Shown: positions 34,829 to 62,610 of the stretch, piece by piece
Layout of the letters: the number at the start of each line of letters is the position of its first letter
Numbering within the stretch: position 1 is the first letter of the stretch
Assembly (NCBI GenBank): GCA_020152595.1
Contig: JAIGNY010002305.1
Location: 1,766,001-1,830,000 of the forward strand
From: Chiridota heheva
Taxonomy: Eukaryota; Echinodermata; Holothuroidea; Apodida; Chiridotidae
DNA length: 64,000 bases
Direction of reading: 5' to 3'
Notes under the pieces: generated by a model
Told to the model about the DNA's origin: nothing
The model's input: the letters and a program-made list of their open reading frames with translations, nothing else
Databases searched by the model: none
Made by a program: the position numbers and the translations under genes

Positions 34829-35677
34829 TCAACTTTCCTGTAATAAACGTTTCCAAGCAACCTTCGGTAACAAGTCTCTTCTCCGCCGCATACCTACCCT
34901 CAAACCATAATCGTTGACTGGTGTATCTTCTACTAGCACAGTGCCGATCGATTGTTTAATAGTCTCACTTTCCAATCTAAAAAGTTTTGAATTACTTTTA
35001 GAACGAGTCTCTCCTGGGGTAACTGAATAATTGAAAAGTGAAGAACTATCAGAATGTTTATTTTCCGTGACTTTGTCTTTTCTTCCTTCAGATTTTGAAA
35101 TATTGCAAAATTCTAGACTCTTACACAAATTCATACTTTCACAGTCATGATTTGAATATGCATGAGAGGTTTGTGGTGTCTCAATGGTGGGTGGATTAAA
35201 GTGATGCCATTGGGCGATGCGAAAGTAGAGGACATTTGAAAACTATCATTACAAACTCTCTGCACTTTCTTCTCCCGTAATCGTCTCGAGCACCGTCTCT
35301 TAGAAGTCCTTGTGTCTTGAATACGTGATTCAATATCTGATTCTCCTACATTCTGATTGATGTTAGTATGAATGTTTAGATTTTGAAACGATATATCAGC
35401 AGTTCTGTTATTGTCTCCTCAAAATGTTACAAGAGAACTGCTCACTTGAAGAGAATTGAATGCCACAAGAGTTTTCTTTATCATCGATTGTCTCCTCTCC
35501 GACAAACCTTAGCTTTAGTCTCTCTCCAAAATCTTTAAGGATTTCTCGATTGGCTGAAATGGGTATGACACTTTTACGGGAGGTCTGTTGGGTACAAGCA
35601 TCTCTTCTTGTAGTTGGTTTTCTTCTTCTTCGTCTTCGACCTGAATGTGGAGCATTCGGGTCAAATTGAGGAGAAAC
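34829..35677 (-). CDS. rhno1-like: RHNO1-like, last exon(s), with apparent frame breaks
   Basis: RHNO1 (RHINO) binds the RAD9-HUS1-RAD1 clamp and TopBP1 and supports ATR-CHK1 signalling in the nucleus. Read on the - strand, acceptor ccattcatacag precedes VSPQFDPNAPHSGRRR and RKPTTRRDA, matching human VSPDFD and RKPTT in order. Near the end, PPTIETPQTS (35197-35165) matches human PPDIQTPESS, and VLVEDTPVNDYGLRVG followed by RRRRDLL matches the conserved RHNO1 C-terminus. The first part (frame ending at 35408), a middle part (GDNNRTADIS to FQMSSTF) and the last part (from about 35240) are not in one frame. Breaks fall at 35408-35421 and near 35185-35240. A short intron from GTGAGC (about 35447) could explain the first break. 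Confidence 0.8.
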
Positions 35678-35934
35678 CTGTATGAATGGAATTAATAATT
35701 GATCAATAATGGACAATCTTCACTTGTTTCATTGCACTTAAAAGTAACTGAAAAAAAGCTTCCCAACATCAAAGGTATGTCATGATTTCAAAGCTAATGA
35801 ATTGCAAGTAAAGGGCATTTTAATACAGTAATATTATTTGCTTCCTTTATCAAAAATTTGTTCAAAATGTTTTGGTTGGTACACAAAATGTTAATTGTAT
35901 ACAATTTAAACACAAAAACATGAGCATTTAAGAT

Positions 35935-36265
35935 CTAATAAAACCAGAACATCAATGATGTTGAAGCTCGATGATATTTGGATGTGGCGTATGGAAGGAA
36001 TGGTGGTGGTGTTAGCCGTTGAAACAGGTTTTCTTATTTTAATCCTCTTCAGCAAGTTTACCAGCATATAGTGAGTGTTAATTCTTTTAGGTGGGGGTGC
36101 TGCTAGGTATAAATTCAGGGCAGTCCAACAGTGAGATTATATTTCACATCACAATGTGTAATGTTAAATTCTAGACCTTTCTGCAGGCAAAAATCTTTTG
36201 AAATCAATACACATATAAAAATGAAAGAGTTTCCTGATTTTCACTTCATAGCAATGTCTGAAAAA
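35935..36265. repeat. dispersed repeat, inverted partner of 43290-43625
   Basis: The segment ccagaacatcaatgatgttg to ttttcacttcatagcaatgt is the reverse complement of 43625-43290. Shared blocks are gaaacaggttttcttatttt, gtgagattatatttcacatc and atcaatacacatataaaaat. The pair brackets the RHNO1-FOXM1 start region. Confidence 0.75.
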
Positions 36266-36449
36266 TTATGCTTCCAAGATCTAATAAAAAGAATTAGTTG
36301 TTAGGAAATTTGATGAGTCAGCAGGGTTCTACAAATCATGTCCTGCTGCCTGGGACAACAAATCTTATCCAGGCACCTATGACATTTGCTTGACCTGCCC
36401 GGATGGACAACATGGTTTACAGCAAAATTTGCATTGCATGCATAACTAG

Positions 36450-36880
36450 AATATCAGTACTCTGTAGAGCACATACCTCCTCCCCCACTGCAATTCCAAA
36501 ATACCTAGAATAGTTTTAGAGTTCATTCGATCCCCATACCCACTATAATCTACCTCAGAAATCCTAGGCCTGCCAAGATTCATCCCCAAGTTTGGATCTG
36601 TAAGGATAATTTGTATTTTGAACACTTGAAGATTATCTTTTGACTTGATTTCTTCTAAGGCCATATCATTGTGTTCAGTTTCATTCAGGCTAAGCATTTA
36701 TTGTTTGAGTTCCTTTTATTATATAAGATTCACATTGCATGATTTTCCATTCATGGCAGAAACCAATTGTTCTTATTACATTGAGAGTACAATGAGTCCA
36801 GAGAATTGATTGTTGGATTCTCTTCATGGCATGAATTCATTGTTCATCACATTCCATTAGGAAGTTTCAACAGTGTTTTG
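36450..36880. mobile_element. dispersed repeat, inverted partner of 24935-25300
   Basis: Shares blocks in reverse complement with 24935-25300 (tctacctcagaaatcctagg; ggcatgaattcattgttcat). Within the RHNO1-like intron. No coding function is seen. Confidence 0.65.
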
Positions 36881-36899
36881 ACAGACCTTACCCTAAACA

Positions 36900-38100: not shown

Positions 38101-38105
38101 ATTAC

Positions 38106-38282
38106 CCATGGATAATTCTCCAGGTCCTCAACATACAAGGTATCAACGGTAACAGGATTGGCTGCAGAGATGACCGGGCTGGCAAATTGAAGCGAATAGC
38201 CCAGAGGACTCTCTGTAAAATTCAGGGCGGCTTCTTGGAGTTTTGACTATTTTTTCTTTTCCTTCTTGGCATGATGCTGACT
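38106..38282 (-). CDS. rhno1-like: RHNO1-like, start exon, with apparent frame break
   Basis: On the - strand an acceptor (gattattttcag) opens this exon and a donor (CCATGG|GTAATT) closes it. The ATG at 38272 begins MPRRKRKNSQNSKK, close to the human RHNO1 start MPPRKKRRQPSQK. The exon end in another frame, ALNFTESPLGYSLQ and LYVEDLENYPW, joins in phase 0 to VSPQFD of the next exon. That recreates the (S)WVSPxFD motif which in human RHNO1 is needed for 9-1-1 binding. The two frames differ by one base, and the change must fall between a TAG and a TGA around the CCGCCC run (about 38225-38245). A missing base in that run would restore the frame. The 5'UTR exon was not located. Confidence 0.7.
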
Positions 38283-39164
38283 CTGAAAATAATCAAGATA
38301 TCTTGTTATACCATATATTATTATTAATACTAGACCTACTGGCATGATTAAATTCAAACAGTTTAGTAAAGAAGTTTGCTAATAACATGGTTTACAGAAG
38401 TTTGCTATTTAATGTTTTCATACATTATGATATGTCCAAATTGTTGACGACTTCATCCATTTTCAACATGAAAATATACTGTGCAGTGCAGTTGGAAAAA
38501 CCACTCAGCTGCAAAAAAACTGTGAGCAGAATATTATACTGTGGTACTCGCCACACTTAATAAAGCCTTGCTAAGTTTGGCGAGTGACTTTCTTTGTATT
38601 AAATTTCCAACCCTGACTGTACATACAGCTAATTTTTTTGGAATTAGATGAAAATGTTATTCATGCGTTAACCATCAACAAAATGAAGAAAAATTAACTC
38701 ACTTCAATGCTATGTACACTATAAGGCCAACAAGCAGCAAATATTAAATTTCTACTTTTTTTCTTTTAAGGTACAGTATATGGACAGTTACAAAATTGTC
38801 ATTTTCCCCTTTGAAAAGAACATGAATTTTGTAAAGTACAATTCTCTAATTGTTGAGAAAAAATAAGTTTAAGAAATTTGTAACAATTATACAAAATTTA
38901 TGAAGAATGAAAAGCAAAAAATGTTGAAATTTGCATGCTGTTTTTATTCATTTCTTTTGGAAAAGAAAAAATACAGAAGTTCACTTCTAGTTTCACTGTA
39001 TGCCACCATGCACCACCATACATACACAATATCTATGAGAAAAGTATGACCTCCAATTACAAAAACCATTTAGAAATGGCAAATTAATGAATGACTGATT
39101 GTCAATTCTACACCATTTCTGGGTCAGTTGACAGTTTAAAACGGCCATTCTGCGGATTTTGCAT

Positions 39165-39775
39165 TACACACGCAAACAACAGGTTTTTTCATGCCCACAC
39201 TATTTGCAAAGCAATCACAGGTGACAATGGACATACAAAAAAGCTCTGAAAAGCCACAAATTTCAACATTTAGGAGGTGGGTACAGTAGTAAATTCTTTT
39301 TATCAAAAATCAGATGTGAAAGGAATTCATCTCGTGAATTTTAGGAGGGCATGAGTAGGTTAGGCCAGGGTATTTTTGTATTGGGAATGAATTTCCATCG
39401 AAATGGGGGAATTGCATAGGGAGACTAACATTAATGACCCGTATGGTTCCCATTTCAAGTGTGGCCTATGCTACACTCGAAACACCCAACCATAGGGGTC
39501 CCTAACGTTCGGTTCCCTATGCAGTACCCGCCATTTCCACGAAAATTAATTCATAGAAAAATGCCCTGGTCTGCCCGTACTTATGACTTCGGATAGTTAC
39601 GAGATAAATTTCCTTTGACACCCGATTTTTGATGAAAAGAATCATTACCCACCTCCTGTATGCTAAAATTACCAGCTTTTTTTGAGCAAGTTTTGTACGT
39701 CTGTCATTGTTAACAATCACTCTACAAATGGTGTGGACTTGAAAAAACCTGTCATTTGAGTATGACACAAAATCT
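39165..39775. mobile_element. long fold-back element
   Basis: Two ~260-bp arms (39165-39425 and 39497-39775) are reverse complements at roughly 75-80%. Matching blocks are aacaggttttttcatgccca with tgtcattt..caagtccacacc (inverted), taggaggtgggta with tacccacctcc, and tttttatcaaaaatcaga with gatttttgatgaaaag. The spacer is about 70 bp. No transposase is seen. Confidence 0.75.
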
Positions 39776-40004
39776 GTTAAATGTTTGTTTTAACTGGTTG
39801 GTGTTTCGTGTGGCCTAAGCCCTATACACTTTTCGTGCACATGATGGTACTGAAAACCTTTGATATGTGGGTTTAAATTAGTCACATTTATTGCTTTTGA
39901 ATGCTTAATTAATTTTTAACAGCAGGAATATAAAATATAAGACCTTCAAAATTCCCTTGCCTTAGTGCTAGTGACCGAATATTCATTTTCACAATGTTTG
40001 GTTT

Positions 40005-41135
40005 GGTTTGTTGATGTTTAACGGCACGCGACAGTCAGAGTCAGATGTGCCAAGACGGTGTTAAAAAATTAAGGTGTAAGAGTTAGGGCAGAGAGGAGAT
40101 GGAGGATTGAGAGGGAGAAAATAGGGTGAATTTGCGAGAAAAATTCATAGGTGAAAAGAGAGGGATGCGTAAGGTTAGGTGTAGAAGGGAAGAGAAAGTA
40201 AGATTAGATATGGTGGAAGAGGTTGTTGTTGCAGGAAGTTGATAATTTGGAGGAAAAGATTGTTTTTTAATAGATCCAAGATTGAGGTGGGTTTGGAGAG
40301 AAGAGACCTGGAGTTCAGGTATATGGGACAGGCTAAGAGGATATGCTTGATGAAGAGTTTAGTGTTGCAGGGGATGCCGGAAAGGAGAGGGGAGTGGGTG
40401 GGAGAGGAGTGATTGAGGCGGATGCGGGTGACAATGACGTATTCCCTGCAATAGCGACTGTGCAGGAGGGTGTTGGTCCCGATTTTGGGTTCGATGGTGT
40501 GAAGTTTGGTACTGGTTTCGGGATTCCAAGAGTCTTGCCAGGTCTTACTGATGTAAATGGAGATGGAGAGACTCAGATGGAGGTCTGAGTGCGGAATTGG
40601 AAAATGAGAAATGTTAATTCACAGAACTTTGTTGGTGGCTCTGTCGTTGCCAGGGATGCCAACATGGCTGGGGATCCAGAAAAAGAAAATTTTCCTCCCT
40701 AAGGAGGAATGACCATGAAGTTTGTTGAGGATTTGTAGAATTAGAGGGTTGGGCCAGAGTAGCTATATCCCACAATACACTTCTTGACATACAGGTGGCG
40801 TGTACGTAAGGCCGCAGATCAGTAAACAACAGCAATCACACAATGTCAGCATACAGCAATGGGTTAAAGTGAAAGAAATTACTGCCAAACGATTCCATAA
40901 CTAGGGCAACAGTATGTTGAGGACGCCAGTGCAGAGTGAGTACGGATTTACAGTCAGAGAAGATGACGAAACGGGGGTGGAAGGAGAGTTATATGAAATT
41001 TAAGGCCAGGAGAAAGGCTTTTGCTTTAGCAGAGTGGATATGAGGTTCTGTCGGGCAGCCTTGAGGAGAGGGGGAGGCCAGGCCGAAGCAGCGGCTGCAG
41101 AGGAGCCTTCCCGTGTGAAGCCGTCGGTGAAGAGG
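40005..41135 (-). mobile_element. decayed non-LTR retrotransposon, RNase H and 3' end
   Basis: On the - strand the broken frames read FLFTDG and SAAAASAWP, then FVIFSDCKSVL, then FFWIPSHVGIPGNDRATN. This order is typical of the RNase H domain of I/Jockey-group LINEs. A C-terminal tail with KHILLACPIY follows, and a 3' end with gccgttaaacatcaacaaacc. Several frameshifts and stops show it is inactive. A second 3' end of the same family is at 8820-9125. Confidence 0.75.
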
Positions 41136-41599
41136 AAGGAGTCTTTTCAATGGCAAATCTGCAATAAATGATTAAATATGCCTATCCTTTCAAAATACAA
41201 AACATAATCTATTAAAGATTTGTGATCTGCAAAGACGTGTGTGACTTTAATATTTTTCATTTTTTAGCAAAACAAATATTAAAGGAATTTTTTTTACCTT
41301 CAGCAAATTACACTAATTTTCGCGAAACTAGTACGCAGGTAAAATCCAAAAAGAACCACTTCTGCAACTACAATTCTAACGATAGTTTCAAGCAAACCAA
41401 ACTAAAATTCCAACCAATAGTCGCCCAAGTGATTTTGTTTGGTAAAAGGGTTAGATGTTTGGAAAGGTTGGATAATGAATAAAGGACATAAATCCCTAAA
41501 TGATAAATATTAATAATAATACTAGACATACAAATTTCCAGATAGCTCAAATATGACAGATGATATCTTTAATTATTTGTTACCGACCGTGCATAAAAG

Positions 41600-41820
41600 A
41601 AGACAGATTCCAATTGGTTGTTTCTTCAATGATCTCGTATCTCGTGACCGTAAGAACCAATGAGCATACATATAAGAAAGCTATCTACGTCCATTGTAGA
41701 TGACGTCAGGCAAGAATTTTCATGCAACGTCATTGGTTGATTTTTTTCATCTGAAAGGAATTTTAAATCAGTTCACTGTTCCGATCGAAGTTCGAGAGCG
41801 TTTTGCAAAAAAGATGAGGT
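41600..41820. promoter_or_regulatory. likely FOXM1 (possibly RHNO1/FOXM1) promoter
   Basis: Contains CCAAT at 41610-41614 and 41657-41661, an inverted CCAAT (ATTGG) at 41732-41736, a perfect CRE TGACGTCA at 41701-41708, and a TTTAAA (CHR-like) at 41762-41767. Multiple CCAAT boxes plus a CHR are the known layout of G2/M promoters, including vertebrate FOXM1. A possible 5'UTR exon ends at GATGAG|GTAGAG (41818/41819), 2 kb before the coding start exon. The location between the divergent genes is suggestive, but no transcript start is visible. Confidence 0.45.
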
Positions 41821-41829
41821 AGAGCAGTA

Positions 41830-43280
41830 AGCTGTAGCCTAATTGATAAATAGTAAGGTGTTCTTCATAACAGCACGTTTAGACTATCTTTTTCATGTTG
41901 TGTCATGAGTCCTAATTCGATTTTTGTTTACCCATCTCTCTCTCCAATTTTGCTGCTGTGCTAGGAACTTACGTTAGGCTAGTCTTGAGTGCTAATGCAT
42001 AAGTTAACGCTAAAGTTAGGCTCATAATATTCCTACATGTCATAAGTCCAGTCAGTGCTCCTGTGTAGACACGATCGCTAATACATAACCTTTTCTACAG
42101 TACTGTGGTTACAAAAGAATGAAAATTAACACTGAAGCCCTTAAGTTAATTCTTTTAACTCAACTCACATTTGCCGGAGACTCCCTTCTTTGTATATTTA
42201 TAAGCCACAGTATTTGTTATACAAAGGTACTAGGTGCTTCTCGATCATGACGTCGTCGTGGACATTTCTTTGGTTTTTTGCAAATTGCAGTTTGTAGGAT
42301 GTGTATTGGGGTGAAAAATTCATCGTTTTGTACATCTCATTGGAAAAAAATAATAAATACAGTGGCATAAAGAAAGAAAAGTCTCCGGCGAATTTGAGTA
42401 AAGTAAAAAATGTGATTAAGATTCGAAAGGGGTCAAAAAGAGGAATTTTTACATACAATTTGGGATTCGCACTAGGAGATTTACTCAGATTATAGGTTGC
42501 CATAGCGCTAGGAACACCTGTGTCTGTGGGTAGGTATACTGCAACTGTATGGACTTTTGTTAAAAATAGCCTTCAAACACCATCTGTCTGCTCTTTCAGT
42601 TCTCCCCACACAGCCCTTGAATTTTTGACTTCAGAAAAAAAAATATGCACATGTTTTTACTTGAGAGTTGACTCCAGACTCAAGTGGAAAGTTTGTTTTC
42701 TTAGAAAAAACAGAATTGAAAATATAACTGAAATTACCTCAGTTTTGTTGATATCACTGCAATTTTGATATGTATTTCTTTAAAAGTTGAGAGAAAAGTA
42801 CGCTGAATCTTGTCACTTAATCTAATCTCTTCCATGAAGAAGATCTTTGGCTAAATCCAACAATTTTGGTAACCACTATCATTATTAACTATTTCTGATT
42901 CTAGGTCAGGTGCACATTTTCAATAAATTTTAGTTTTCTTCATTAAAAAGTTAAGAAAAGTGAAGTTCCTGAAAGCCTTTTATTGAGTATTAACATAACT
43001 TCATAAGAAAACTACTTCATATTGTAACTTCAGCATTTTGTAAATATTTTTGTATCATTTCCTCCATCAAATAGATTGGTGCACATTTTCCAGACGGGGA
43101 CTATTTTGTAGATCTTAGCTCACATTTAAGCTCATATCTGAAGCCTCCGTACAATACAAGTCTTAAATACATTGGGTCGGTGGAATTAACCTTCGTCAGT
43201 AATCGACAGAGACATGATGACACCACCCATTGGAACACACATAATTTATACAAGAACGCTTGTAACTTCTTGTTAGGAGC
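41830..43280 (+). other. FOXM1-like 5' intron, no exon seen
   Basis: AT-rich sequence without supported exons. Short open frames at 42198-42768 have no recognisable motifs. Confidence 0.4.
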
Positions 43281-43289
43281 ATCCTTTTT

Positions 43290-43625
43290 TCAGACATCGC
43301 TATCAAGTGAAAATCAGGAAACTCATGAATTTCATATATGTGTATTGATTTAAAAAAAAAAATTCCCACAAAGAAAGGGCAAAACTTAATATTTCACATT
43401 GTGATGTGAAATAGTGCCTTACTGTTAGACTGCCGTTCATGCCTGGCAGCACCCCACGTGTCTGAGAACCAGCATGCTGCTAAACTTGGGACCTGATGAA
43501 GAGGATTAAAATGAGAAAACCTGTTTTAATGACTGAAATAACCACCACCCACCACATGTATATGCAACATCAAAATTTTGCTGAGTTTCAACATCATTGA
43601 TATTCTGTTTTTAATATTTGGAAAG
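43290..43625. repeat. dispersed repeat, inverted partner of 35935-36265
   Basis: Reverse complement of 35935-36265 at about 75-80%. It includes a strong short palindrome, aatatttcacattgtgatgtgaaat. It lies 190 bp upstream of the FOXM1-like start exon. Confidence 0.75.
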
Positions 43626-43812
43626 TGATTTGTCTTGCTTAAATTTATTGCATTGGAAGGGAGGGGGGGAGTGCAGCACTGCATATTTATGATCTAACAT
43701 TTCAGGATTTATTGTTTTCATTTTCTACTTACATTCCTGCTGTCCATAGTTCTTTAAGAACGACATATGTATATGACATGTGTTTAATACTTTTCATCAC
43801 TATCTTTTCAAG

Positions 43813-44239
43813 GAAAGCAGCTGGAGAATTGGTCAGTAAATATTCAGCAAGATGTCAAATATCATAGTGAAGGCTGCGGAGGAATCAGAAATAATAGAAT
43901 TGTCAGATGCTATTCAGACCATCTTAGATGACGATGGGAAAGAGAATGAGCCACTCCTGCCCTCAAGTTACTTATCAGGGACCGAACTTAAATCTCCCCG
44001 TGCAAGATACATTAACGCCATTTTAGAGGATTCCAACGTGGATAACACTCCACATGATGGCAAGGTAATCAATTCGTCAAGAAGCTTTTGTAGACGTTTG
44101 GACAAAAGCGCCACCACCCCAAATAGGAAACGTGAGCGTCACCTGAACAGCGTCAATATACTGTGCAGATCTAAGAAGAGACGGTTAGAGAGAAGAAATT
44201 CAGAAAATTCCCTGCTGTCTAAATCGCGTATGTCACCAG
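43813..44239 (+). CDS. foxm1-like: FOXM1-like, start exon (N-terminal regulatory region)
   Basis: FOXM1 is a forkhead transcription factor that drives G2/M genes with the MuvB complex. Acceptor actatcttttcaag precedes the exon. The ATG at 43852 follows an in-frame TAA at 43837, so the start is secure. It encodes 129 residues: an acidic N-terminus, a KEN box (residues 30-32, GKENEP; human FOXM1 also carries an N-terminal KEN/D-box used by APC/C-Cdh1), several SP/TP sites and a basic patch (NRKRERH, SKKRRLERR) that could act in nuclear import. Donor CCAG|GTAAGT, phase 1. This exon alone would not identify the gene; the downstream exons do. Confidence 0.85.
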
Positions 44240-44525
44240 GTAAGTAAGTAACATATTGTAAGGTAAAGCTAAAGTAAAATATTTGTAACTTTCTACACGT
44301 TGACCAATTGTTAGATTAAAAAGTTAACCAGAATGTGTTTTTTTGCAATTTCAGACAGTCAAGACAGGAGTTTAAATAAAAGTCTGCCACAAAATCAAAT
44401 ATTTTCCTATTTGAAATAAAGTTCTTTTCCTACCTACCCACCCAAGATTTTGAGAAACTCACATATATTATATTTTGGCTAATAGGCATCATATTGTAAG
44501 TTAGGCATGCTCCAGTTAAGTTCAG

Positions 44526-44807
44526 CAGACCCCTAGCTTTGCCCGCCCTGCCCTCAGCAGAAAAAATGTATAATTTATTTTTATTTTAAGACCTAATAAA
44601 TTTCATAAATGAAATAACTTACATGGATACAGAAGAGATATTGATAGCATAGTAAGCAATTGTCTTGTTTGGCTAATGACTGGTCCTAGTTTCATTCTGG
44701 GGCGCCCTGGAATCTACGCCGAAAAGACGCAGTGCTTCGTGCGCACATTAATGAGCCCCTCGACAAGTCTAGTACCCTGCCCCTTTTTAAATCAAGCTAG
44801 GGGTCTG
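44526..44807. mobile_element. TIR element CAGACCCCTAGCTT, copy 2, with TSD
   Basis: Begins cagacccctagctttgcccg and ends aaatcaagctaggggtctg. A 7-bp AGTTCAG lies directly outside both ends, a clear target-site duplication. Short TIRs and a 7-8 bp duplication suggest a non-autonomous hAT-type element. It lies in the first FOXM1-like coding intron. Confidence 0.85.
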
Positions 44808-44871
44808 AGTTCAGTATGCCTTTGGTTTGTTGCTGTATACATTATATCTCAAAGCATAAAGTAGTTCCAAA

Positions 44872-45680
44872 TAGTGTTTACACGGGTACCCGAAATATCC
44901 GGGTACGCGACCGATTGAGTTGCTACCCGGTTCCGAAAATACAACCCGGGTATGGATTTTTAAAATATTACCAATTACAAGCTGTTTCTGTTTAAGAATT
45001 GTATATTAATAAGAATAAATCTTATCTTACAAGAATTATAAAAGTGTTTGTTTTCTTTCTATTCCAACGCAATGCAATAAAACAATCATAAAATATTGTC
45101 ACGGATCGCAGAAATGATGTTGAATGAGTGATGTGGCTAGTAACGTAGGTACGCTAGTATTACTACATGTACTAGTAGCACAAAACTTAAACTCTCTAAA
45201 CTTCACTGTAAAAAAAAGATATACAAACCAGCACGCAACAAGCAGTGTGTGTAGTATGCTGCAGAAAAAATATATTGCGAACTTTGAGGTTGTACATTAT
45301 TAAGCTATTTTGAAAGCATGTCTGCTATTTGCTGGAAAAAAATGTAACACCTATTATGAACCAATCACAGGTTGTGTTTAAATGAAATTGTTACGTGCTA
45401 CTGAGCGTGCACATAACAGAACTGTGGAATCGCGTATTATTCCAGAAAACACCCGTTCCATGAAATTTTGTGGAATTGATAGAAACATTTGTATTTTATT
45501 TCTTTATTCACAAAAACAAAGATACGATTAAAAAAACAAGATTTTACAAGGTACATTGTTAGATTTTAAGACATACTACTTTCGCGAAAAGTATTGAAAA
45601 GGCCTTGCGGCAGGTCGGATACCCGACCGATGATGCAGGTCGGGTACCTGGTCCGATTTTTGGACCCGGTGCAAACACTA
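44872..45680. mobile_element. hAT-like TIR element (TAGTGTTT..AAACACTA)
   Basis: Left end tagtgtttacacgggtaccc and right end gacccggtgcaaacacta are inverted, with further inverted blocks (ggtcgggtacc, cgggtacgcgaccgattga). Flanks gttccaaa and attccata match at 6 of 8 positions, a plausible old 8-bp duplication. The interior is non-coding. Confidence 0.75.
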
Positions 45681-45884
45681 ATTCCATAACAAATTGTTCA
45701 TGAAGCATTGGCCTCCTTTTCTTAAATTGATATTGTAATAACTATGTTATTCAGTTTCTGTTAGGAAACTCTTCGGCGGGCAGGCAGACATAGCATCATT
45801 TTTGTCTGCCTGCATAAGATTCCTGGTTTTCATGGACAGGTGTATATCATATGTGATTTGTTTTCTGATCCATACTGTACAGGT

Positions 45885-51066: not shown

Positions 51067-51173
51067 TTAACCCTTACTCTACCAGTACCTTTTTGGAAAT
51101 GCGCCTGGGAGGCGGAGTCAAAGACAGAGCACCCAAGACTGATAATATCGCCGCGTGGTAAAGTAAGGGTTAA
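51067..51173. mobile_element. 107-bp palindromic MITE, copy 2
   Basis: TTAA-cccttactctaccagtac to gtggtaaagtaaggg-TTAA, about 88% identical to 50823-50931 and in the same orientation. Confidence 0.9.
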
Positions 51174-52357
51174 GCAAATGTTCATGCACAGCGAAGCAAT
51201 GTGATTGGACAAGAGGTGACACACCTCTAATTTGCATTGTACCTTTATCTTGTGACAAACGGTTGTTAAATTGGTGCATTATAGAGGGTTGTTATACTTT
51301 TTCACGGGGAAGTTACTTTTCTGTATTATATATTGCATTTGTTGTTGATTTTAAATACGAATGAGCATGAACAGCGCTCAGCCCAACTGTAAATTTTCCA
51401 TGGCAAAGGGACTGTAAGGAAAGTTGTTCATCCATGAACCCCTAAAGGACTGGTGACATGTAGAAGCAAGTTGGCTTTAAACTGATGTTTGACACTCACT
51501 GAATACTGAGTAACCCCTATATCTCCAAAATGATAATTGGAAAAGTGTGAAAATCCTGTTATTTTGAAGTTTAGAATAACCACTTTCTGTGGCGTCTGCA
51601 AACTTATTTAAATATGTGACATTGCAAGTTGTAGACCCCCAGAACTGCCTATTTAAACGCATACAAAGTAATTACAGACCTAAAAAGTTAAGAAATTTCA
51701 TCCAGAAGATTCCTTTTGAGAACTTGACGGAGATATTATAGACTGCCATATTATACCTGAAGATGCAATCCAACCATAAATGTTCCGGATATTACTGGGG
51801 GAAATCAGCCATTCTGAGCCGGCTGAACGCGAAGTTCAACAAACCCTTAATAAACACCTTCACAACACTGCAGATTGAAGGTAACTTACGAATACATTTT
51901 GAAATAATTAGTGCCTTCAGTCTCATCTGGTACATGCACTGATTCATACAATTCTCTCCTTTTCATCTAAGCTATACCATCATGCGATCTATTTCATAAA
52001 AATCGCTAAAAGTTTAGGCCTACAACTGGACTCAAGCTAGTAGTAGCCAATAAATACACACAATACACAAACGCATTGTATGTGTATAGGCTAGGTCTAT
52101 GTATGTATGTGCATAGGCTAGGTCTACGTACGTACAGCCAGCTGGAGATCAGTAATATCACTGTCCAACTTGACAAGTCACAAAATTTTAATAACAGAAA
52201 TCAGAATAGAAAGTTAAGTCGTTTATATGAGTGGCAAAAATAGGTTTTTCTAAGATTGTAAAAGACAGACATTTTTTGAACTACATATGTATTAGAAAGT
52301 TGTTCCAAATTAAAAATACATCAGTTGATACCAAATTTGCTAAATGTCACCAAACCT

Positions 52358-53680
52358 TTAAAGAATTAGTTCAGGGGTCATGCAAGTCCATCTTATATGA
52401 AAGAGGACTACAAAAGAAACAAAATGGTGAAGAAAGCATTCAATAATCTTACTCATCAAGAAAATATGTAAGTTTAAAGTTCTGTATCATTTGTGTATAA
52501 ACGACTGAAATCAGACTAGTTTTGATGCATAGCCTCAGATTCCTCATAGTTTGTATGTATTCTATCATATTTTGTCTTGTATTTTTGTATCCTAAAAACC
52601 ATTGGATATGTCAGGAAAGTAGTAAAACAGAATCTAGTAAGCATAATTTTAATTTACCACCTGAAGAAAGTTGAAAGAAAAATAATTCAAATACTTAAGT
52701 ATTTTAACAAATTTTCTCTGAAATACATTACTAATTGTTAAGAATGTGTGGATGAGGGTGCCAACCTTCCATAGTAGACTTACTACACCATCATTTCTCA
52801 CACATAAGACAACCTATGAAGATATTCCATAACTTGTTAGACTTACTACACCATCATTTCTCACAATCCCATGAAGAAGCTCTGGCTTTAAACTTGAATA
52901 TCCATTTTAGCCAAAAGATATTGTACTATGGTCATTCTGTGTTCTGTATCCATGAAAGGTATTTTATTTTCGGTTAATTACCAGTTTTTTGTTTTATCTA
53001 TTAAAGGGGGAGAGGCCGCCCCTGTAAAATAAAGTCTGACATAATCCTTATTTCATATAAAAGAATTGAAAATAACAAATGTACTAACCAAGCTTCATAA
53101 CTCCAGAAACAATCCTAACACATTTTTTGAAATTATTTAAAACTTTAATGCTACTACTACTACCATGGCAGTACCATGGGAGCTGCCATTTTGATTTCAA
53201 AACATGCAGATTATGATGTCATCAGTCCAGCAGGATGTTGGAATGCTTTGTATTTCTTTATAATCTACCTCAAGTTTTCTAGCTGATGAAAAATTGTTTT
53301 CGTTTTGTAAGGGTCAAGGAATTTTTTGTGTTCACATGAAATTATCAAAACATGTTGTTAAAACTTTGTTTCACATCGTTTTGAATAAAAACTTGAATCA
53401 CATTTATAAAGAAATACGTTATAATCTTTATGTCCCTGTTGGGGAAATTATGTCAATATGCACAATATTTCTATACAGAATTGAAGAAAATGGCAGCCCC
53501 CATGTATTGATTTCAAACATGAATATAGCTTGAGATAGGAATAAGATTTTGACTTGCTGTATTTGGCAGTTGGTTAAGATTTTTATCCTCTATTATATGA
53601 AATAATGATTGTATCAGCCTTTATTTCTCCTTTATGTCCTGTTTCATATAAGATGATTGGCCACTGAACTAATCCTTTAA
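52358..53680. mobile_element. TTAA-flanked MITE, copy 4, with nested insertion
   Basis: TTAA-agaattagttcaggggtca at the left and gccactgaactaatcct-TTAA at the right are the ends of the TTAA family. The centre is enlarged by a second repeat (53015-53640) whose ends are a gtctgacataatccttattt and ataatgattgtatcagcct inverted pair. That repeat recurs at 54590-55300. Confidence 0.8.
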
Positions 53681-53869
53681 TTAGATATGTTTAACATTTA
53701 TGATATAAGTGTGAATAATAGGCACACATGCAGATTAGAATTAAAGAAACAGCACTTTGCCTTATATAGTAATGAACAAAAGGTGACAAGCATACTTATT
53801 TCCAGAGAAACATGTTTGTAGTTTTCCAACAATTACACTGTAATGGGTTCTGCCAATTATCTTGTCATA

Positions 53870-54215
53870 ATCAGCCAGATCCGATCCGATTTCCGATAAT
53901 TGTTTATGATAGTACTAATTAATGGTGATAAACATGCTGTGGGCAGTGTTAGTGAGCATAAATCAACATGGATGTATAAGATAATAAGGAGGAGAATACA
54001 TGTTGAAATTGAAAATCAAAGATAAAATACATTTTTCGTCATCAACATGAATATATATATTTTTTTTCTCTCAGCTTTTCAGGTTTTAACGTTTAAAAAA
54101 GAAAAGAAAATTAATACAAAAGAAATGAAATACAAAATAACAATGATCGAATCGGCAATCCGCCGGCATTTCACCGATTCTAATTTTGTTGCCGATCAGT
54201 CATAATCGGCCTTGT
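53870..54215. mobile_element. possible TIR element (ATCGG-rich ends)
   Basis: cagccagatccgatccgatt at the left and cgatcagtcataatcggcct at the right are loosely inverted, around an AT-rich centre. It ends about 40 bp before exon 5. Weak evidence. Confidence 0.35.
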
Positions 54216-54254
54216 TTGTGAAGCCCTTGTATTTTTTTTTTTTTACATTTATAG

Positions 54255-54541
54255 AATTCAATCAGGCACAACTTATCCCTTCACAAGATCTTCATTCGAG
54301 AAGCTCCAGACGGTCCAGGAAAACCAGCCTTTTGGACCCTAAAGCCTGGCACTGTGGTGCGCCTCCCAGAGAATCGTCTTTCATCATGGAAGGTAACATG
54401 ACAACGGATTGCTCCCACAAAGTCCCCCAGTCATATGCGGTACGGACGGGTGTCACGGTGCCAGCATCATGAGGGCAGCAGATGGGAGTCGTGTTCATGT
54501 CAGCCCAGCTTCTCTCGCAGCAAGACCGAGAATAAAGCAAG
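54255..54541 (+). CDS. foxm1-like: FOXM1-like, exon 5 (forkhead second half), one apparent frame break
   Basis: Acceptor ttttttacatttatag opens in phase 0 with NSIRHNLSLHKIFIREAP, the recognition helix and following strands, then FWTLKPGTVVRLPENR and a stop (TGA 54399-54401). In the next frame, after a TAA at 54394, codons stay open from HDNGLLPQSPP to AARPRIKQ and reach donor CAAG|GTAATT (54541) in phase 1. This joins the last exon as KQEPSRPKPILPR, matching human TELP..RRKMKPLLPR. So both halves belong to one exon, and one extra base lies in 54394-54401. Alternatively AAG|GTAACA at 54392 is a real donor, but its phase does not fit the last exon. Confidence 0.85.
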
Positions 54542-54589
54542 GTAATTAGCTAGCTTACATAATTTATGGTTCTCAAACCACAAGTTTTA

Positions 54590-55300
54590 AACGAGACAAA
54601 GTCTGACATAATCCTTCTTTCATATGATATAATAAAAAGTTACAAGGTCTTCTGACCTAGTTTCATATTTCCCAAAGCAATCTAACACATTTTTTAAAGT
54701 TTTAAAAACTTAAATGATGCTACTAAATAGTACTATAGCTGCTATTTTGATTTTCTAAACATGCAGATTATGATGTCATCAGCCCAGCAGGATGTTGGAA
54801 TGCTTTGTATTTCTTTATAATCTACCTCAGGTTTTTTAACTAATGAAAAATTGTTTTCCATTTGTTAGGGTCAAGGTCATTTTTGTGCACACATGAAATT
54901 ATCAAATCATGCTGTAAAAACTTTGTGTCACGTCATTTTGGAATATAAACTTTAAAAAAAATATTTTTAAAGAAATACATTTTAATTCTTATGTTCCTTT
55001 TAGGAAAATAATAATAGGAACATTTATATAGCGCTTAATCCACACTGTGGAGTATACTCAAAGCGCTTATACAATAAAAATTATAGGTTAATGTAAATAA
55101 ACGATTAAATCAAATTATAATAAAAATCAATAATACTTGAACAAGTAATGTCATCATGCACAAGATTTCAATATATGATTGAACAAAATGGCAGCTTCTA
55201 TTTGTTGACTTCAAACAAATAACTTTAGGTAGGAATAAGATTTCGACTTGCTATTTTTTTGATGCTCTATCATATGAAATAAGGATTTTATCAGACTTTA
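54590..55300. mobile_element. second copy of the 53015-53640 repeat, with SINE-like insert
   Basis: gtctgacataatccttcttt to ataaggattttatcagactt, with internal gattatgatgtcatcagccc shared with 53210. It is interrupted at about 55010-55135 by a different short repeat, tttatatagcgcttaatcca to ctcaaagcgcttatac, itself a small inverted repeat. This is a nested insertion. Confidence 0.8.
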
Positions 55301-55309
55301 CCTCCTTTT

Positions 55310-56140
55310 TTTTTTGTATTTAAATATCAAGAGTAGGACAGTACAACACTAACGTTATGTGAAAGTTACAATGTACCATACAGTAATACTTACAGCCTGA
55401 CGTAACAAGTGGAGTTCACAGAAGTAATGGATGAGAACTTGAGTCAATATTTCCACTTTATCCAGAAGAAAATGTCCTAAAATAGTTAGCATAACGCTAA
55501 TTAAGTGATATTCTGATGTCTGATTCAATGAGACTGATGTTTTGAAATAGCCTAGGTCAATGTGACACAGTTATACTGTGGAACAGGGTTTGCACTAGCT
55601 TTGGATTTTTGGGAGGAAAATTCCCTCTTTCAAAAGATTTTTGTTAGGGATTTTAGAATTTTGGTAGGGAATTTCATAATTTTAGTAGGTAAGTTCCACG
55701 TGTAGGCAGATGATGCCAAAAATAACCTTTTACCAAAGGTAAAACTCTTAAATTATATTTACTACCGTAAATTGCTTAAATATTAGGGCTTTGTATTTAC
55801 GTTTATAGCGACCTAGATGGCCAATTTTGTGTTCGTTTAAATGTGACCTTTGACCTAGAGTTTTGCAAAAATTGGGAAAATGTTGCAATACCAGTTAAGA
55901 CCCCTGACACCTAGCGACATGCTGTGCTATCATGACCACGCTTTTTAGAGCAATAAATAAGAAACATCTTTGCCCCCCCACAAAACCAAAAAAAGTTTTC
56001 ATATGCCACGATACCTAATACTTACCTAAACTACGCCCTAAACACTCCTTCTTCCACGTCTTCCCCCTCCCTGGCAATCTACACAATTTCCCATACCTTC
56101 AACTGCACATGGCCATTGTAGTACATGGCTCAGGCTGAGT
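55310..56140 (+). other. FOXM1-like last intron, no exon seen
   Basis: AT-rich. A block at 55580-55690 (gggtttgcactagctttgga, gggaatttcataatttta) resembles the flank blocks at 14960 and 18400. No exon. Confidence 0.4.
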
Positions 56141-57049
56141 TCTTAGTGTAGGGATGTACCAGATCCAAATTTTTTAGATCCGTCCGGAACCGGATTTGGC
56201 CAGATCTGAGATGAAATCTGGATTTCCCTTACAAAAAAAGATATCAATAACAAAATGATATTATGGAAAGGGAGAATACCTAATAAGATAAAGTATATAA
56301 TTTGTTAGAATTGTCCCTGTAAATAGGACTTCGAGTGGTGTACAGTGTAAATACATTATCTAATTAACAGAAGTATTAACTGCAACAAAAGTCTGAATGA
56401 TTGCATGATACATGTAAATGTGTTTGTTTAAAACTTAGAGTGCACCTTTGACAGTTTGAAGTTTGTGAAAAGGTCACATTTAAAAAACTCATATATTGAG
56501 AAAGAAAGGAAATTAGTGGGTTGTGAAGAAACTGCAAATAATTACAGCAATTATTCATCATTTGGTAAAAAATGTTTTCCTTGGAATAAAAAACATCATT
56601 GTGTATACCATTCCAGAAATAGAAGAAAACATATTACATGGATATCAACATTAGGCTTAATAGTGCTAAAACTGCAGTTCTAAGTGTAATTTAGATTTGT
56701 CACCAAGAATGTATTTCAATATTTACAACTGTTATGCTGATCAAAGAATGTTTTTTTTTTTAGATGAATATTTAATAATCCATTGTACTTTAACTGACAG
56801 TGTGACCCTATTAGATGAAAACTTTTCCATTCCATCTATCTGAAAAGAGACTACATGTATTTTATGTTGCATTATATAATTAGTTCAATTTAGCAATATA
56901 TATTGAAGGGAAGCAGTTTAACAGATGACAATGATGAAGAAAAGAGAGAAGCCCTACAAAAAGGGGTAAAGCAACAATGATAAGATAAGGAATGTCTATG
57001 GCTAAAGTTAACTACCCAATTTTTGGCAGGCACCTATACTTTTGCTTTT

Positions 57050-58400
57050 TCAGAGGGTCTCCACCCTGCCCCTTATTGCCTCCCCCACCCTGCCCCTTAT
57101 TGCCTCCACCCTGCCCCTTATTGCCTCTTCCACCTTGCCCTTTATTGCCTCCTCCACCCTGCCCCTTATTGCCTCCTCCACCCTGCCCCTTATTGCCTCC
57201 TCCACCCTGCCCCTTATTGCCCCCACCCTGCCCCTTATTGCCTCCACCCTGCCCCTTATTGCCTCCACCCTGCCCCTTATTGCCTCCACCCTGCCCCTTA
57301 TTGCCTCCACCCTGCCCCTTATTGCCTACACCCTGCCTCTTATTGCCTCCACCCTGCCTCTTATTGCCTCCACCCTGCCCCTTATTGCCTCCACCCTGCC
57401 CCTTATTGCCTCCACCCTGCCCCTTATCGCCTACACCCTGCCCCCTTATTGCCTCCACCCTGCCCCTTATTGCCTCCACCCTTCCCCTTACTGCCTCCAC
57501 CCTGCCTCTTATTGCCTCCACCCTGCCCCTTATTGCCACCACCCTGCCCCTTATTGTCTCCACCCTGCCTCTTATTGCCTCCACCCTGCCCCTTATTGCC
57601 TCCACCCTGCCTCTTATTGCCTACATCCTGCCCCTTATTGCCTACACCCTGCCTCTTATTGCCTCCACCCTTCCCCTTACTGCCTCCACCCTGCCTCTTA
57701 TTGCCTCCACCCTGCCCCTTATCGCCTACACCCTGCCCATTATTGCCTCCACCCTTCCCCTTACTGCCTCCACCCTGCCTCTTATTGCCTCCACCCTGCC
57801 CCTATTGCCACCACCCTGCCCCTTATTGTCTCCACCCTGCCTCTTATTGCCTCCACCCTGCCCCTTATTGCCTCCACCCTGCCCCTTATTGCCACCACCC
57901 TGCCCCTTATTGCCTCCACCCTGCCCCTTATTGCCTCCACCCTGCCTCTTATTGCCTACACCCTGCCCCTTATTGCCTCCACCCTGCCTCTTATTGCCTC
58001 CACCTTGCCCCTTATTGCCTCCACCCTGCCCCCTTATTGCCTCCACCCTGCCCCCTTATTGCCTCCACCCTGCCCCTTATTGCCTCCACCCTGCCCCTTA
58101 TTGCCTCCACCCTTCCCTTACTGCCTCCACCCTGCCTCTTATTGCCTCCACCCTGCCCCTTATTGCCACCACCCTGCCCCCCCATTGCCTCCACCCTGCC
58201 TCTTATTGCCTCCACCCTGCCCCTTATTGCCTCCACCCTGCCCCTTATTGCCTACACCCTGCCCCTTATTGCCTACACCCTGCCCCTTATTGCCTACACC
58301 CTTCCCCTTACTGCCTCCACCCTGCCTCTTATTACCTCCACCCTGCCACTTATTGCCTCCACCCTGCCCCTTACTCCCTCCACCCTGCCCACTTTCACTA
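57050..58400. repeat. 21-bp C-rich minisatellite
   Basis: About 64 units of ccaccctgccccttattgcc plus t, with variants (cctcttattg, acaccctg, cttccccttactg, 1-nt gains of C). Because 21 is a multiple of 3, all three + frames stay open (469-479 codons, LLPPPCP, TLPLIAS and HPAPYCL repeats), as do long - frames. These are repeat artefacts inside an intron, not a protein. Confidence 0.96.
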
Positions 58401-58569
58401 AGAGCCCTACATTTTATTCACAACCAGAAAACCAAAGCTTATGAGGTTCCGACGTGCAATTATATGGATTTTAATTTTTGAACTATTGTATAATAAGTGT
58501 TATTACACAATGGGCTCAAAATAACAATGGCACCAAATAACTCAGTTCTCACAAAATGGAATTGCACAA

Positions 58570-59105
58570 TTAATTAAGTTCAACAATTTGTATCCCATTA
58601 CACTTACTAACAACATTACTTCAAACATTTTAACTTTAAGCCCTGTCTACTCATTAATATGCATGATATTGCCACCAAAAACAATAGGGCACATCTGCAG
58701 TCCATGGGTAATTTGTGTTCCACATGTTATGACCTGAATCCCACATAACATTCTTGAGATACTGTGTTTACAAAGCTTTCTTTAACAAAATCATGTTAAG
58801 CCTCTGCCCACTAAGTATATTAACAAAATTCAACATTTTTGTACCATGAACATGTACACACTAGTTAACAACATAATCACACCCTATATGAAACAAAACA
58901 TACCTGCGGTTGTTAAAGTTTGAGCATTTTAAGATTTTAACATTAAGCCCCGCCTACTCATTGATATGCATGACATCACTATCAAAAACAAAGGATACAT
59001 CTGTGGATCATGGGCTATCTGTGTACAAAATTTGACATGAATCTAGTTTACTGCATGCCATCATGACTGAATAGGTTCCTAATGCTATCGCATTGGAATT
59101 ATTTT
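58570..59105 (-). repeat. ~290-bp repeat units, inverted relative to 10258-11255
   Basis: Two units in reverse complement: cattaatatgcatgatattg with caaaaacaatagggcacatc, and cattgatatgcatgacatca with caaaaacaaaggatacatct. They end at ggttcctaatgctatcgcat, matching the outer edge at 10258. Confidence 0.75.
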
Positions 59106-60273
59106 GGAAATATTTTGCCTTCTTTTCATGCTATTACACAGCAGTTTATTCCCCTAACAATATAATAAGATGCAGGGACACTACTTGTTGAATTGATTAC
59201 TCCATGATTTACATTTCAAGTGTCTTCAAGACTTTAAACCTGCCCACAAAGTGCCCTTGATGCCTTGTAAATGCCCCTTTTTGTCAGTGACATTCCCTAC
59301 CCCTTTCTGGATCAAGCTTGTTGTTTGTATTACTCTGATAGAAACTGCCAGAAATGTTTATATTTTTATACTTACTGTTTGTTGTCATGGTTGTAGGCCC
59401 TATACTATGAAAAAGCTTCAGTTCATTACAATAGTTGTATCAGTTTGGTCATACCATGGATGTATTGTTCTACCTACCTCCATGGTCATATGTACTTGGT
59501 TTGGTTGATTTATTCTAACAGTAGCTCAAAGTTTTCATAATTTTAAATAAATTATTATGTTAAACTGTATCTTTCTTTACTTTGATAGTTTTATTATTTT
59601 TTGGAAAGAATTTACTTCAATTTGAGCTGTTAACATCATCTTCTTTAGAGAAAATTAGAGCCAGATTTTTAGAATAATCGGCTGGATTTTTGTGCAAATC
59701 CGGCTCCTCACTATCTGGTCGGATAGTCCGGCCAGATCTGATATCCGGTACATCCCTACTTATTACTAGCAGCTACCATGCTGAAGAAACTGACTGTAAA
59801 TAGTTTTGTGATAGCCCCCTTATATATCGCTGAGAACATTCCAGAATTGAAATGAAGTTCCCAAATGAGGCTAAACTGGGAAGTCTTTTGACTGCTTAAT
59901 AAACTTTTGATCCAATGCAGATCTAAGACTTGAGATTCTTTTGTTTGGAAAATGACCACGCAATTGGCGAAGAATTTTGTGTGACACGCATGCAAATCAA
60001 AGAAGCTTACGGTTTGTTTTAGGTATCTTTGGTTCAAAGAGATTTTTAATCGCTAAAATTCATATTGTTACTCGAGGCCTAATGTTATCACTGAATGCTT
60101 AGCGCGGTTTTGAACGCTTGTCTTAGCCAGCAGCCCCCGGTAGCTGTGCCACCATCCCGCATGGCTTCTAATTTTGTGCGAGATTCTGAGAAGTGATTGC
60201 GCGATTCTCACAATCGCGCTGCTAATACAATCCCTGCTGTGGAAGCTATGCATTGTAGGTTTCTCTGTGTCTT

Positions 60274-61008
60274 TTGGTGCTGTTAACGATAGCGATTAAT
60301 CGCTTGGAACTCTTCAAAAACGTTTAGTAAAACTCTAAACGATTAATCACAAAAATACTATATGGGTGGCCTAGTGTACAGTAACAATTAGCACCACTGA
60401 AAAAGATTGTAAAATACTCAAAAAATCACCTAAAAGATTTAAATAATAAACTGAAAACAAACCCCTCTATGCTTAAAATGAATGAAAAAGGCATTAAAAA
60501 TCAAGCAAATTCAATCATTTTCTTGATTATCGATTGTTTAGATCTTCCCACAGCGTGTTCATGGCCAAAATTAAATTCAAAATTGTTGCCGCACTTTAAG
60601 AATTAAAATTGATTTACAGTAGGGAAGTGCCATTTTACAGGCCTTAGCCAATATTGTACTGGGGTACGGTCGATGTACAAATATTATTTTGTGACAGTAG
60701 ATGGAACTTCAGAACGGCCAGAAATCGGCAACATTTCTTGTTAAATATTGTAACCCAGGATCTTTATTATTAACTAGTTTCATCAGCCTAACGGGTAATT
60801 ATAAGACATTAAATTTGCATTTGGTGAGATTCTTGGCCTATTTTTGGTCCAAAATTACAAGGTTTGTTTGTGTGTGTGAACTGTACCAGTTCAACGTAAT
60901 TTGTTATTACTAAGTTTTGGGTGAAGCTTTGTTGCGATTAATCGCTTAAACGCTTGCAAATTTTGGCGATTAAACGTTTAGTGATTTAATTGCAAATCAA
61001 CAGCACTA
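60274..61008. mobile_element. TIR element (TGGTGCTGTT..AACAGCACTA)
   Basis: ggtgctgttaacgatagcga at the left and caaatcaacagcacta at the right are inverted, with subterminal gcgattaatcgctt and aaacgttta motifs on both sides. Non-coding interior. Confidence 0.7.
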
Positions 61009-61133
61009 ATGTGCTTATTCTTGCGCATGCCTGTTTGTAATAGTGGAAGTCCAGCCGTTTCTTGTGGCTTAATTTTTCACTTTTTCGCGAAATTTCTGAT
61101 ACTGCATATAGGAGTATTTATACTGCATCCATT

Positions 61134-61205
61134 GGCCCAAACCAATTCTACCAAGAGGTTCTACATCATGTGCCTTAGTATCCTTACCAATGATCATCGT
61201 AACAA
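61134..61205 (+). pseudogene. duplicated start of the last FOXM1-like exon
   Basis: This 72-nt segment is identical to 61850-61918 except for one substitution (TCT to TCA, synonymous Ser) and a 3-nt in-frame insertion (ATC). It has lost the acceptor; sequence upstream (gtatttatactgcatccatt) is unrelated. The open frame continues for about 75 codons beyond the copy without homology. Partial exon duplication is certain from sequence; function is unknown. Confidence 0.85.
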
Positions 61206-61380
61206 TGATCGTTTATGCAATGTTCATAATATTAAAGGGACAAATTTATGGCAAATTCGCTACGACATATCCTTATACTTATAATAACCAAGAGAATAAT
61301 GATTGTTGTTCTTTGAATTGCATGCATTTTCTTGTAGGAAACCTAAGAAAGATTTTTTGTCCATATACCCTTCAACATTT

Positions 61381-61811
61381 CAGGCCTCCCGGTAAACCTT
61401 TAAAAACCTTTAGAAACCTTTATTGACAAATTGAACCTTTATTTCTTTTAAAATAACCTTTAAAACCTTTAAAAACCTTTATTTTCAAAGTTAAGTAAGG
61501 TAAATGATTCAAGTGCCAAGGTTTTAGCTTCATTGGTAAGTATACACATCCATTTAATAGCATATCTGTTCTCAACACACATTTAAAAAGTAGCAGGACC
61601 AAAATAAAATTTCCAACTTCACGTAAGTAATGGTCTTTTGGCGCCACCAACTGCCTTTTGCCCAAAATATGCTCATTGTATGAAAATTTATTTCATGAGT
61701 TAACATTTATAAACCTTTTTATTTAAATCCAAAACCTTTAAAAACCTTTATTTCAACTTTTCCAACCTTTAAAAAAAACTTTATTTAAAAAAAGAGTCAC
61801 TGGGAGGCCTG
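61381..61811. mobile_element. MITE (CAGGCCTCCC..GGGAGGCCTG) with TSD
   Basis: Ends caggcctcccggtaaacctt and gagtcactgggaggcctg are inverted. ACATTT flanks it on both sides (61375-61380 and 61812-61817) as a target duplication. The interior is rich in aaacctttaaaaacc words, in both arms. It ends 29 nt before the last-exon acceptor. Confidence 0.9.
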
Positions 61812-61840
61812 ACATTTCTATATATTTTGTTTTCCTACAG

Positions 61841-62610
61841 AACCTTCCAGGCCCAAACCAATTCTACCAAGAGGTTCTACATCTTGTGCCTTAGTATCCT
61901 TACCAATGATCGTAACAACCAATCCATCTACTGGGCAAATCATCCCCTCAATGGCGATCGCCTCAGCTTTGGACTCGCAAGAAATGTTCGGACATCACAC
62001 AACCCCTAAGGGGGCCAAGAGGGGCAGGTACCAAAAAATTGCCCCAAAAGCGGAGCCATTTAACACTCAGCCAACGATCAAATATGACTACCAATCACCA
62101 CTGTCTTATGATTCTGGATTTGGAGTAAGCGGATTGGATCTACTTGACAGCAATAGTATGTCCACCCAGAGGTCAACATCTAGAAGGAAATGTAGGTCAT
62201 CATCGTTGTCCGTCGCCCCAGCCAGTCCACCCTCAATGTCCACCCCTCTGAAAACTCTCAGCGGTTCAACGAGTCTGTTTGAAAATCTAGGCTGCCTGAC
62301 CCCCATTGAGGATTTCACCAACCTTCGCGGAGGCTGCGAAGAGTTTTTGACTATCACACCCATCAAGAATTCCGGAATGACTCCGGTAATCAAGGAAATA
62401 TTGAACAATATCAGTGACATTGATTTATCCCCGCTGGGCTCCTCTCGACAGGGGAGGAAACTGATGACGCCCAAGAAGGTGGTCGTGGAAAGAAATGAAT
62501 TCAATGAAAGTTTTAATTTTGATGAACTGTTTGACAGTCCCGAGGCAAACACTAATGCCTTTAATTTTTCAAACCTCAGTTTCAACCATTTATTTTCACC
62601 TCAGAAATAG
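61841..62610 (+). CDS. foxm1-like: FOXM1-like, last exon (C-terminal/transactivation region)
   Basis: Acceptor attttgttttcctacag opens in phase 1; with G from exon 5 it reads EPSRPKPILPRGSTS, matching human FOXM1 RRKMKPLLPRVSS. Further on, AKRGRYQKIAPK matches human RHSKRVRIAPK. Many SP/TP sites follow (ASPPSMSTP, LTPIEDF, ITPIKNSGMTPVIKEIL, DLSPLG, MTPKK, FDSPEA, LFSPQK), fitting CDK/PLK1 control known for this family, and an acidic-hydrophobic end (NFDELFDSP..LSFNHLF). Stop TAG at 62608-62610. Total about 655 residues if the exon 5 break is one extra base. Confidence 0.92.

Follow-up and report, generated by a model that had tools for sequence, protein, structure and literature searches.

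The window analysed here comprises 64,000 nucleotides (nt) of the contig JAIGNY010002305.1 from the sea cucumber Chiridota heheva (assembly GCA_020152595.1, positions 1,766,001 to 1,830,000) and contains relatives of two genes that are well known from humans, RHNO1 on the minus strand and FOXM1 on the plus strand. The two genes are adjacent and divergent, with no recognised gene between them. The head-to-head arrangement as in human, which had been proposed in the initial annotation, is borne out by the strands of the two genes and by the finding that none of the 19 open reading frames (ORFs) of at least 60 codons in the interval (the FOXM1 exon excluded) matches a Pfam family over its cut-off. 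The coding parts and the interval are as follows:

38106–38272, minus strand: RHNO1 first coding exon (MPRRKRK ... ENYPW), 167 nt, with the N-terminal RHINO match
34829–35677, minus strand: RHNO1 last coding exon (VSPQFD ... LLQES, stop), 849 nt, with the C-terminal RHINO match
34868–34975, minus strand: C-terminal RHINO block (within VLVEDTPVNDYGLRVGMRRRRDLL), matched by the profile in the genome search (E 6.8e-4, 29.1 bits)
35471–35482, minus strand: RHNO1 KEN box, codons DKEN (in DDKENS)
38273–43851, no strand: interval between the RHNO1 and FOXM1 start codons
43852–44239, plus strand: FOXM1 coding exon 1, open frame, GKENE at 43936–43950
48592–48849, plus strand: FOXM1 exon 2, open frame, phases fitting exons 1 and 3, no Pfam match
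49146–49249, plus strand: FOXM1 exon 3 with DDSLTNITWLRRMS, open frame, no relevant PDB match
50481–50642, plus strand: FOXM1 forkhead, first half (Pfam)
54255–54392, plus strand: FOXM1 forkhead, second half (Pfam, PDB)
61841–62610, plus strand: FOXM1 last exon with stop, open frame, no Pfam match

The minus-strand gene is a relative of RHNO1, because both of its ends match the Pfam family RHINO (PF15319, curated cut-off 25 bits) and the window locus is the sole match that a search with the RHINO profile reported in the 1.1-Gb genome (3744 contigs). The C-terminal ORF (34829–35242) alone reaches 34.9 bits, the N-terminal part reaches 37.6 bits when its break is bridged with an X, and a full read-through across all breaks yields 61.8 bits in three stretches; the matched stretches of 41 and 95 residues follow each other in the correct order along the gene. 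Taken alone, the last-exon ORF 35408–35719 matches no Pfam family and the last-exon ORF 35131–35418 gives only a weak unrelated Pfam match. A DNA search of the genome with the last exon returned only the exon itself. All of the signatures by which the gene had initially been named RHNO1 were located in order from 38272 to 34829, namely the ATG at 38272, the tryptophan ending at 38106, VSPQFD from 35677, RKPTT from 35623, PPTIETPQ at 35194–35171, VLVEDTP from 34939 and the stop codon ending at 34829. The intron separates W from VSP, i.e., the motif W-VSP-F lies at the exon junction. The RAD1-binding site of human RHNO1 is 56-WVSPDF-61 (PMC10937111), five of the six residues of which are kept here (W plus VSPQF), and the human protein carries a D-box and a KEN box (PMC13228601). 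KEN motifs are present in both RHNO1 and FOXM1 of C. heheva, and a gene for Rad9, the partner clamp subunit, was found in the same genome. A PDB look-up of RHNO1 gave no match or irrelevant matches. The likeness to the RHNO1/RHINO family consists of the profile match at both ends, W-VSP-F, the KEN box and, as in the human protein, the basic start and the RKPTT, PP-I-TP and VLV-DTP-YG blocks. The protein differs in its diverged middle, in a RAD9-binding motif that is not recognised by eye, in its frame breaks and in its size, which is about 340 residues in read-through as compared to 238 in human (PMC12847792).

On the ranking of PDB matches, the plus-strand gene is assigned to FOXM1 (FoxM class), in agreement with its earlier naming. 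The joined forkhead exons reach 103.7 bits with Pfam Forkhead, and the best three of the 46 matched PDB sequences are FOXM1 entries (E 2.8e-30 to 4.3e-30), followed by FOXG1 (1.7e-23), such that FOXM1 is ahead of other Fox classes by about 22 bits within this set. The genome contains 29 forkhead matches when these are counted exon by exon, two of which are the FOXM1 exons described here. Six exons could be placed by eye, and a script confirmed that together they give 605 codons without a stop. A span of 43813–62610 had originally been given for the gene; its start has to be moved to the ATG at 43852, whereas its end holds, as the stop codon closes exactly at 62610. Likeness to human FOXM1 comprises 53 identical residues out of 83 aligned in the forkhead and also DDSLTNITWLRRMS in exon 3, which resembles the N-terminal regulatory motif of the vertebrate proteins, and KPILPR...KIAPK in the last exon, C-terminal stretches that likewise resemble vertebrate FOXM1. 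Differences are the limited forkhead identity (64%), which by itself would argue for an invertebrate rather than a vertebrate source, and the structure of the gene, whose introns are long (total extent about 19 kb) and of which one or more exons were not located. Skp1_POZ on the ORF of exon 1 (18.3 bits, cut-off 21.9) was set aside. Outside the forkhead, a PDB search found no FOXM1 match, and the structure of the FOXM1 regulatory domain, 6OSW (PMC6538375), was not among the matches. FoxM is known from a hemichordate and an annelid (PMC4077281, PMC9539403). One of the FOXM1 introns harbours a repeat array with 21-nt spacing that spans about 1.4 kb (56984–58481, 53 overlapping copies listed); the array is open in several frames and a trap for gene finders.

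In humans, FOXM1 and RHNO1 (12p13.33) are likewise adjacent and divergent, they share a bidirectional promoter and are co-expressed, and the promoter region is conserved in vertebrates; the human pair and the conservation of its promoter are therefore already published (PMC8104967). Since the same arrangement has been published for human, with a promoter region conserved in vertebrates, inherited linkage is far likelier than two independent origins. For two given single-copy genes, a divergent placement next to each other would come about by chance with a probability of about 1 in 2N, i.e., about 2e-5 if 20–25 thousand genes are assumed. The RHNO1-FOXM1 neighbourhood is probably very old. The old linkage that had initially been claimed is well supported, while the selection for co-expression proposed along with it, as well as a promoter common to both genes, would be plausible for this genome. 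We infer inheritance of the pair from a common ancestor with vertebrates, and we consider it likely that the best explanation is a divergent pair of this origin that has been held together by a divergent regulatory region.

On the model of the bidirectional promoter of the human pair, such a region, situated between non-coding first exons, would have kept the two genes together and would turn on a G2/M transcription factor along with an adaptor of 9-1-1 and TOPBP1 in dividing cells. The motifs of RHNO1 suggest a protein that would use W-VSP-F to contact the RAD1 face of the clamp and act via its conserved C-terminal block. In cancer cells, human FOXM1 as well as human RHNO1 promotes phenotypes of repair and growth (PMC8104967). 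RHNO1 works with 9-1-1 and TOPBP1, takes part in mitotic end joining together with Pol theta, and is found mainly in G1/S in one cell model (preprint PMC12426944). It would be reasonable for such a protein to be encoded next to FOXM1 and activated in the same cycling cells.

The interval between the genes contains the following features:

39136–39793: foldback repeat, 0.66 kb
40019–40287: dispersed repeat with a relative at 8840–9113
35936–36265 and 43286–43616: inverted repeat pair (73%), with arms lying, respectively, in the intron of RHNO1 and shortly before FOXM1
41.3–41.9 kb: candidate promoter with a peak of the CpG observed/expected ratio, an E2F-like palindrome, a cAMP response element (CRE) and four CCAAT boxes

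The CpG observed/expected ratio of the interval peaks at 1.27 (41500–41799), and its GC content does not exceed 0.51. The E2F-like palindrome TTTTCGCGAAA at 41317 is one of two in the window (the other is at 61082), the CRE TGACGTCA at 41701 is one of three (the others are at 633 and 7539), and 41610–41736 is the sole site of the window with at least four CCAAT boxes within 130 nt. The human pair is served in both directions by one CpG-island promoter, which contains E2F and MYC sites (PMC8104967), whereas in C. heheva there is only a candidate promoter between start codons 5.6 kb apart. An acceptor-like site 10 nt upstream of the RHNO1 ATG (score 2.6, compared to −0.5 to 7.5 for the placed FOXM1 acceptors) suggests a non-coding exon upstream of the ATG and would place the RHNO1 transcription start probably farther toward FOXM1. 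On the minus strand, splice-site scoring gave only 39652 above 5.5. A weak Pfam match of an interval ORF, HU-HIG (13.2 bits), and weak matches to KELK, DUF1935, RRM_7 and CBP_BcsE all remained under their cut-offs and were set aside. Rfam at gathering scores and a tRNA scan gave nothing, and another 16 ORFs, located in the window but not in the interval, lacked any Pfam match at E values up to 0.1.

Several observations weigh against a pair that was inherited and held together by its regulatory region. The case for common ancestry compares human with this single genome. The start codons of the two genes are separated by 5.6 kb of DNA that includes repeats. The CCAAT cluster cannot serve as evidence for a shared promoter, as 20 of 100 simulated first-order Markov sequences (mean of 2.09 such clusters each) have one in the interval; because the cluster is not rarer than chance, 41.3–41.9 kb is only a candidate, a place to look for the promoter. 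No plus-strand donor scoring above 5 was found at 41.3–42.4 kb, a weak point as four of the five FOXM1 donors also score below 5. The fifth FOXM1 exon does not join the last one in phase, so that the model must be missing one exon or more in 54.4–61.8 kb. Human RHNO1 contacts RAD9 through the region 88-TSKFPHLTFESP-99 (PMC10937111), of which no clear counterpart was seen by eye after RKPTT, and another RAD9-pocket motif extends from K13 to F18 (PMC12907562), a position that coincides here with the first frame break. Finally, the RHNO1 landmarks are not in one frame, and three frame changes occur within 1016 nt.

Of these frame changes, which the initial annotation had overlooked, one is firm and two are possibly an intron. 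The frame starting with MPRRKRK stops after 16 codons (TGA at 38224–38222) and the rest of the exon, up to the tryptophan, is in another frame; this change was located by hand between 38246 and 38222. Within the last exon, the frame changes at about 35408–35418 and, if PPTIETPQ is coding, returns between 35242 and 35195, the two shifts offsetting each other as 849 nt are a multiple of three. RHNO1 may be damaged in this individual or lineage, or the local sequence may be wrong. As controls from the same assembly, we used the 605 open codons of FOXM1 and 2784 open codons, counted from the first M, of seven single-exon Fox genes; these were drawn from the best eight of the 29 forkhead matches (one locus had no ORF passing the filter), a selection that favours open frames. 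If breaks were uniform, the probability of finding all three in RHNO1 would be 0.046 against FOXM1 alone and 0.00075 when the Fox controls are added, the latter value exaggerating the contrast because the control genes were picked up as open frames. Codon scores amount to 0.005 for the middle segment of RHNO1 (best of its six frames) and to −0.028 for the RHINO-matching C-terminal part, both lower than the 95% point (0.132) of a set of non-coding open frames with a mean of −0.216, and do not separate sequence error from decay.

We regard it as fairly probable that the breaks are local assembly or base-calling errors in an intact gene. Both exons keep their conserved ends, the last-exon shifts cancel, and the first exon is 167 nt long, where 168 nt would set the tryptophan at residue 56 as in human; yet the adjoining FOXM1 and the seven Fox controls are free of such errors. 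This last contrast, RHNO1 with its three frame changes over 1016 nt as opposed to none in the FOXM1 and control codons, together with the uniform-break probabilities (with the reservation made above) and the single RHNO1 copy found in the genome, would agree with a decaying pseudogene in a lineage that keeps FOXM1. We consider such decay unlikely, as the segments between the shifts are free of stop codons, two of the three shifts cancel, the codon score of the middle segment is close to that of the C-terminal part (although both stay below the 95% point), and sequencing error, too, typically leaves small insertions or deletions next to short runs of A, T and C. An unrecognised intron in the last exon instead of two shifts seems quite improbable. 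Three single GT-AG introns over the set score limits would reopen the frame (best donor 35445, acceptor 35013), and Pfam does not separate a shortened model, itself not a valid splice, from the read-through (61.6 vs 61.8 bits), but all three introns delete PPTIETPQ and the break in the first exon is left unexplained, the four solutions there (35–86 nt) needing GTCAAA or GC donors.

The next recognised genes on either side of the pair are as follows:

12911–13180, plus strand: upstream neighbour, ORF carrying the RRM exon of an SR protein that resembles SRSF3 (PDB match)
C2235:1837280–1838431 (the contig of the window), convergent with FOXM1: NFYA, the next recognised gene past FOXM1 (Pfam)

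The RS-rich exons of the SRSF3-like gene, read by eye, continue to about 25635. In a PDB comparison, the row named SRSF3 matched the RRM exon with 3.3e-29 and SRSF7 with 1.6e-22, and slightly better matches were obtained with 2i38 and 2i2y, which are SRSF3 structures as well. NFYA lies 7.3–8.4 kb beyond the window, matches Pfam with 51.9 and 38.6 bits on two exons and was reported at one location of the genome only; it encodes a protein that binds CCAAT boxes. Of six flank ORFs scanned, four gave no Pfam match up to E 0.1, and as these ORF lists are short, smaller genes may be missed. In human, 6p21 carries SRSF3 and NFYA, and 12p13 carries the RHNO1/FOXM1 pair with other neighbours, while here the pair, with its RHNO1 frame broken, stands between an SRSF3-like gene and NFYA. 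Human 6p21.31 (FKBP5, TULP1, TEAD3) and 12p13.33 (FKBP4, TULP3, TEAD4) look like duplicates of one ancestral region. The neighbours of the pair in C. heheva fit an older linkage group that was later split and, if so, the locus displays a gene order predating the 6p21/12p13 duplication. A comparison of macro-synteny with human 12p13 placed Tub on contigs C1763 and C1830 and TEA on C3336, with none on C2235; the contigs are too short for this placement to support or refute the old linkage. No paper joining at least five of the six 6p21/12p13 gene names was found in the literature, papers combining FOXM1, SRSF3 and NFYA contain nothing on synteny, and for FOXM1 and microsynteny the accessible part of PMC3815023 has FOXM1 only in a reference title.

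An old linkage could also have persisted without selection, simply as a pair within a conserved chromosome neighbourhood that has not yet been broken up. We see this as possible though somewhat unlikely. The SRSF3-like gene and NFYA, judged by their human positions, also look like members of the old linkage group, and the interval is long and has gained repeats. Against this, SRSF3 and NFYA are now elsewhere in human, whereas the human pair remains tight, divergent and co-expressed from one promoter (PMC8104967). A further-reaching reading, which we consider doubtful, is that RHNO1 predates vertebrates, that its lasting pairing with FOXM1 is older than the whole-genome duplications of vertebrates and belongs to a block SRSF3-RHNO1-FOXM1-NFYA, and that this lineage is now losing RHNO1. 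If this were true, loss of RHNO1 with FOXM1 kept would be a natural test of a divergent promoter without its second gene.

Apart from the pair, a 15–16-nt tandem array was noted at 17512–18313 within minus-strand open frames of 279, 291 and 309 codons. A search for a second animal copy found none among viral contigs and, among genome contigs, gave two bacterial forkheads. Kistimonas asteriae (NZ_JAEVHF010000018.1, 4983–5450) has an animal-type forkhead (71.5 bits) between DoxX and FGGY-kinase genes; the ORF ends in DSLTNLRWLTEIQPQ and has a GC content of 0.40 in surroundings of 0.47–0.57, and it is a candidate for gene transfer from an animal. In Sansalvadorimonas verongulae, a sponge-associated bacterium, a forkhead ORF (NZ_SMME01000786.1, 4581–6038) reaches 84.4 bits on its first 306 residues, contamination being possible, and the ORF beside it has a weak Sina-type RING likeness (26.4 bits, below cut-off).

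RHNO1 is described in one paper as a protein found in vertebrates, and in the literature covered, which excluded most subscription journals and the animal protein databases, there is no account of RHNO1 in invertebrates or amphioxus. If the pair is ancient, RHNO1 would date from earlier than published accounts state, and the mitotic transcription programme would have been linked to an adaptor of the 9-1-1 checkpoint and of mitotic end joining long before vertebrates, a link that would be testable in simple embryos.

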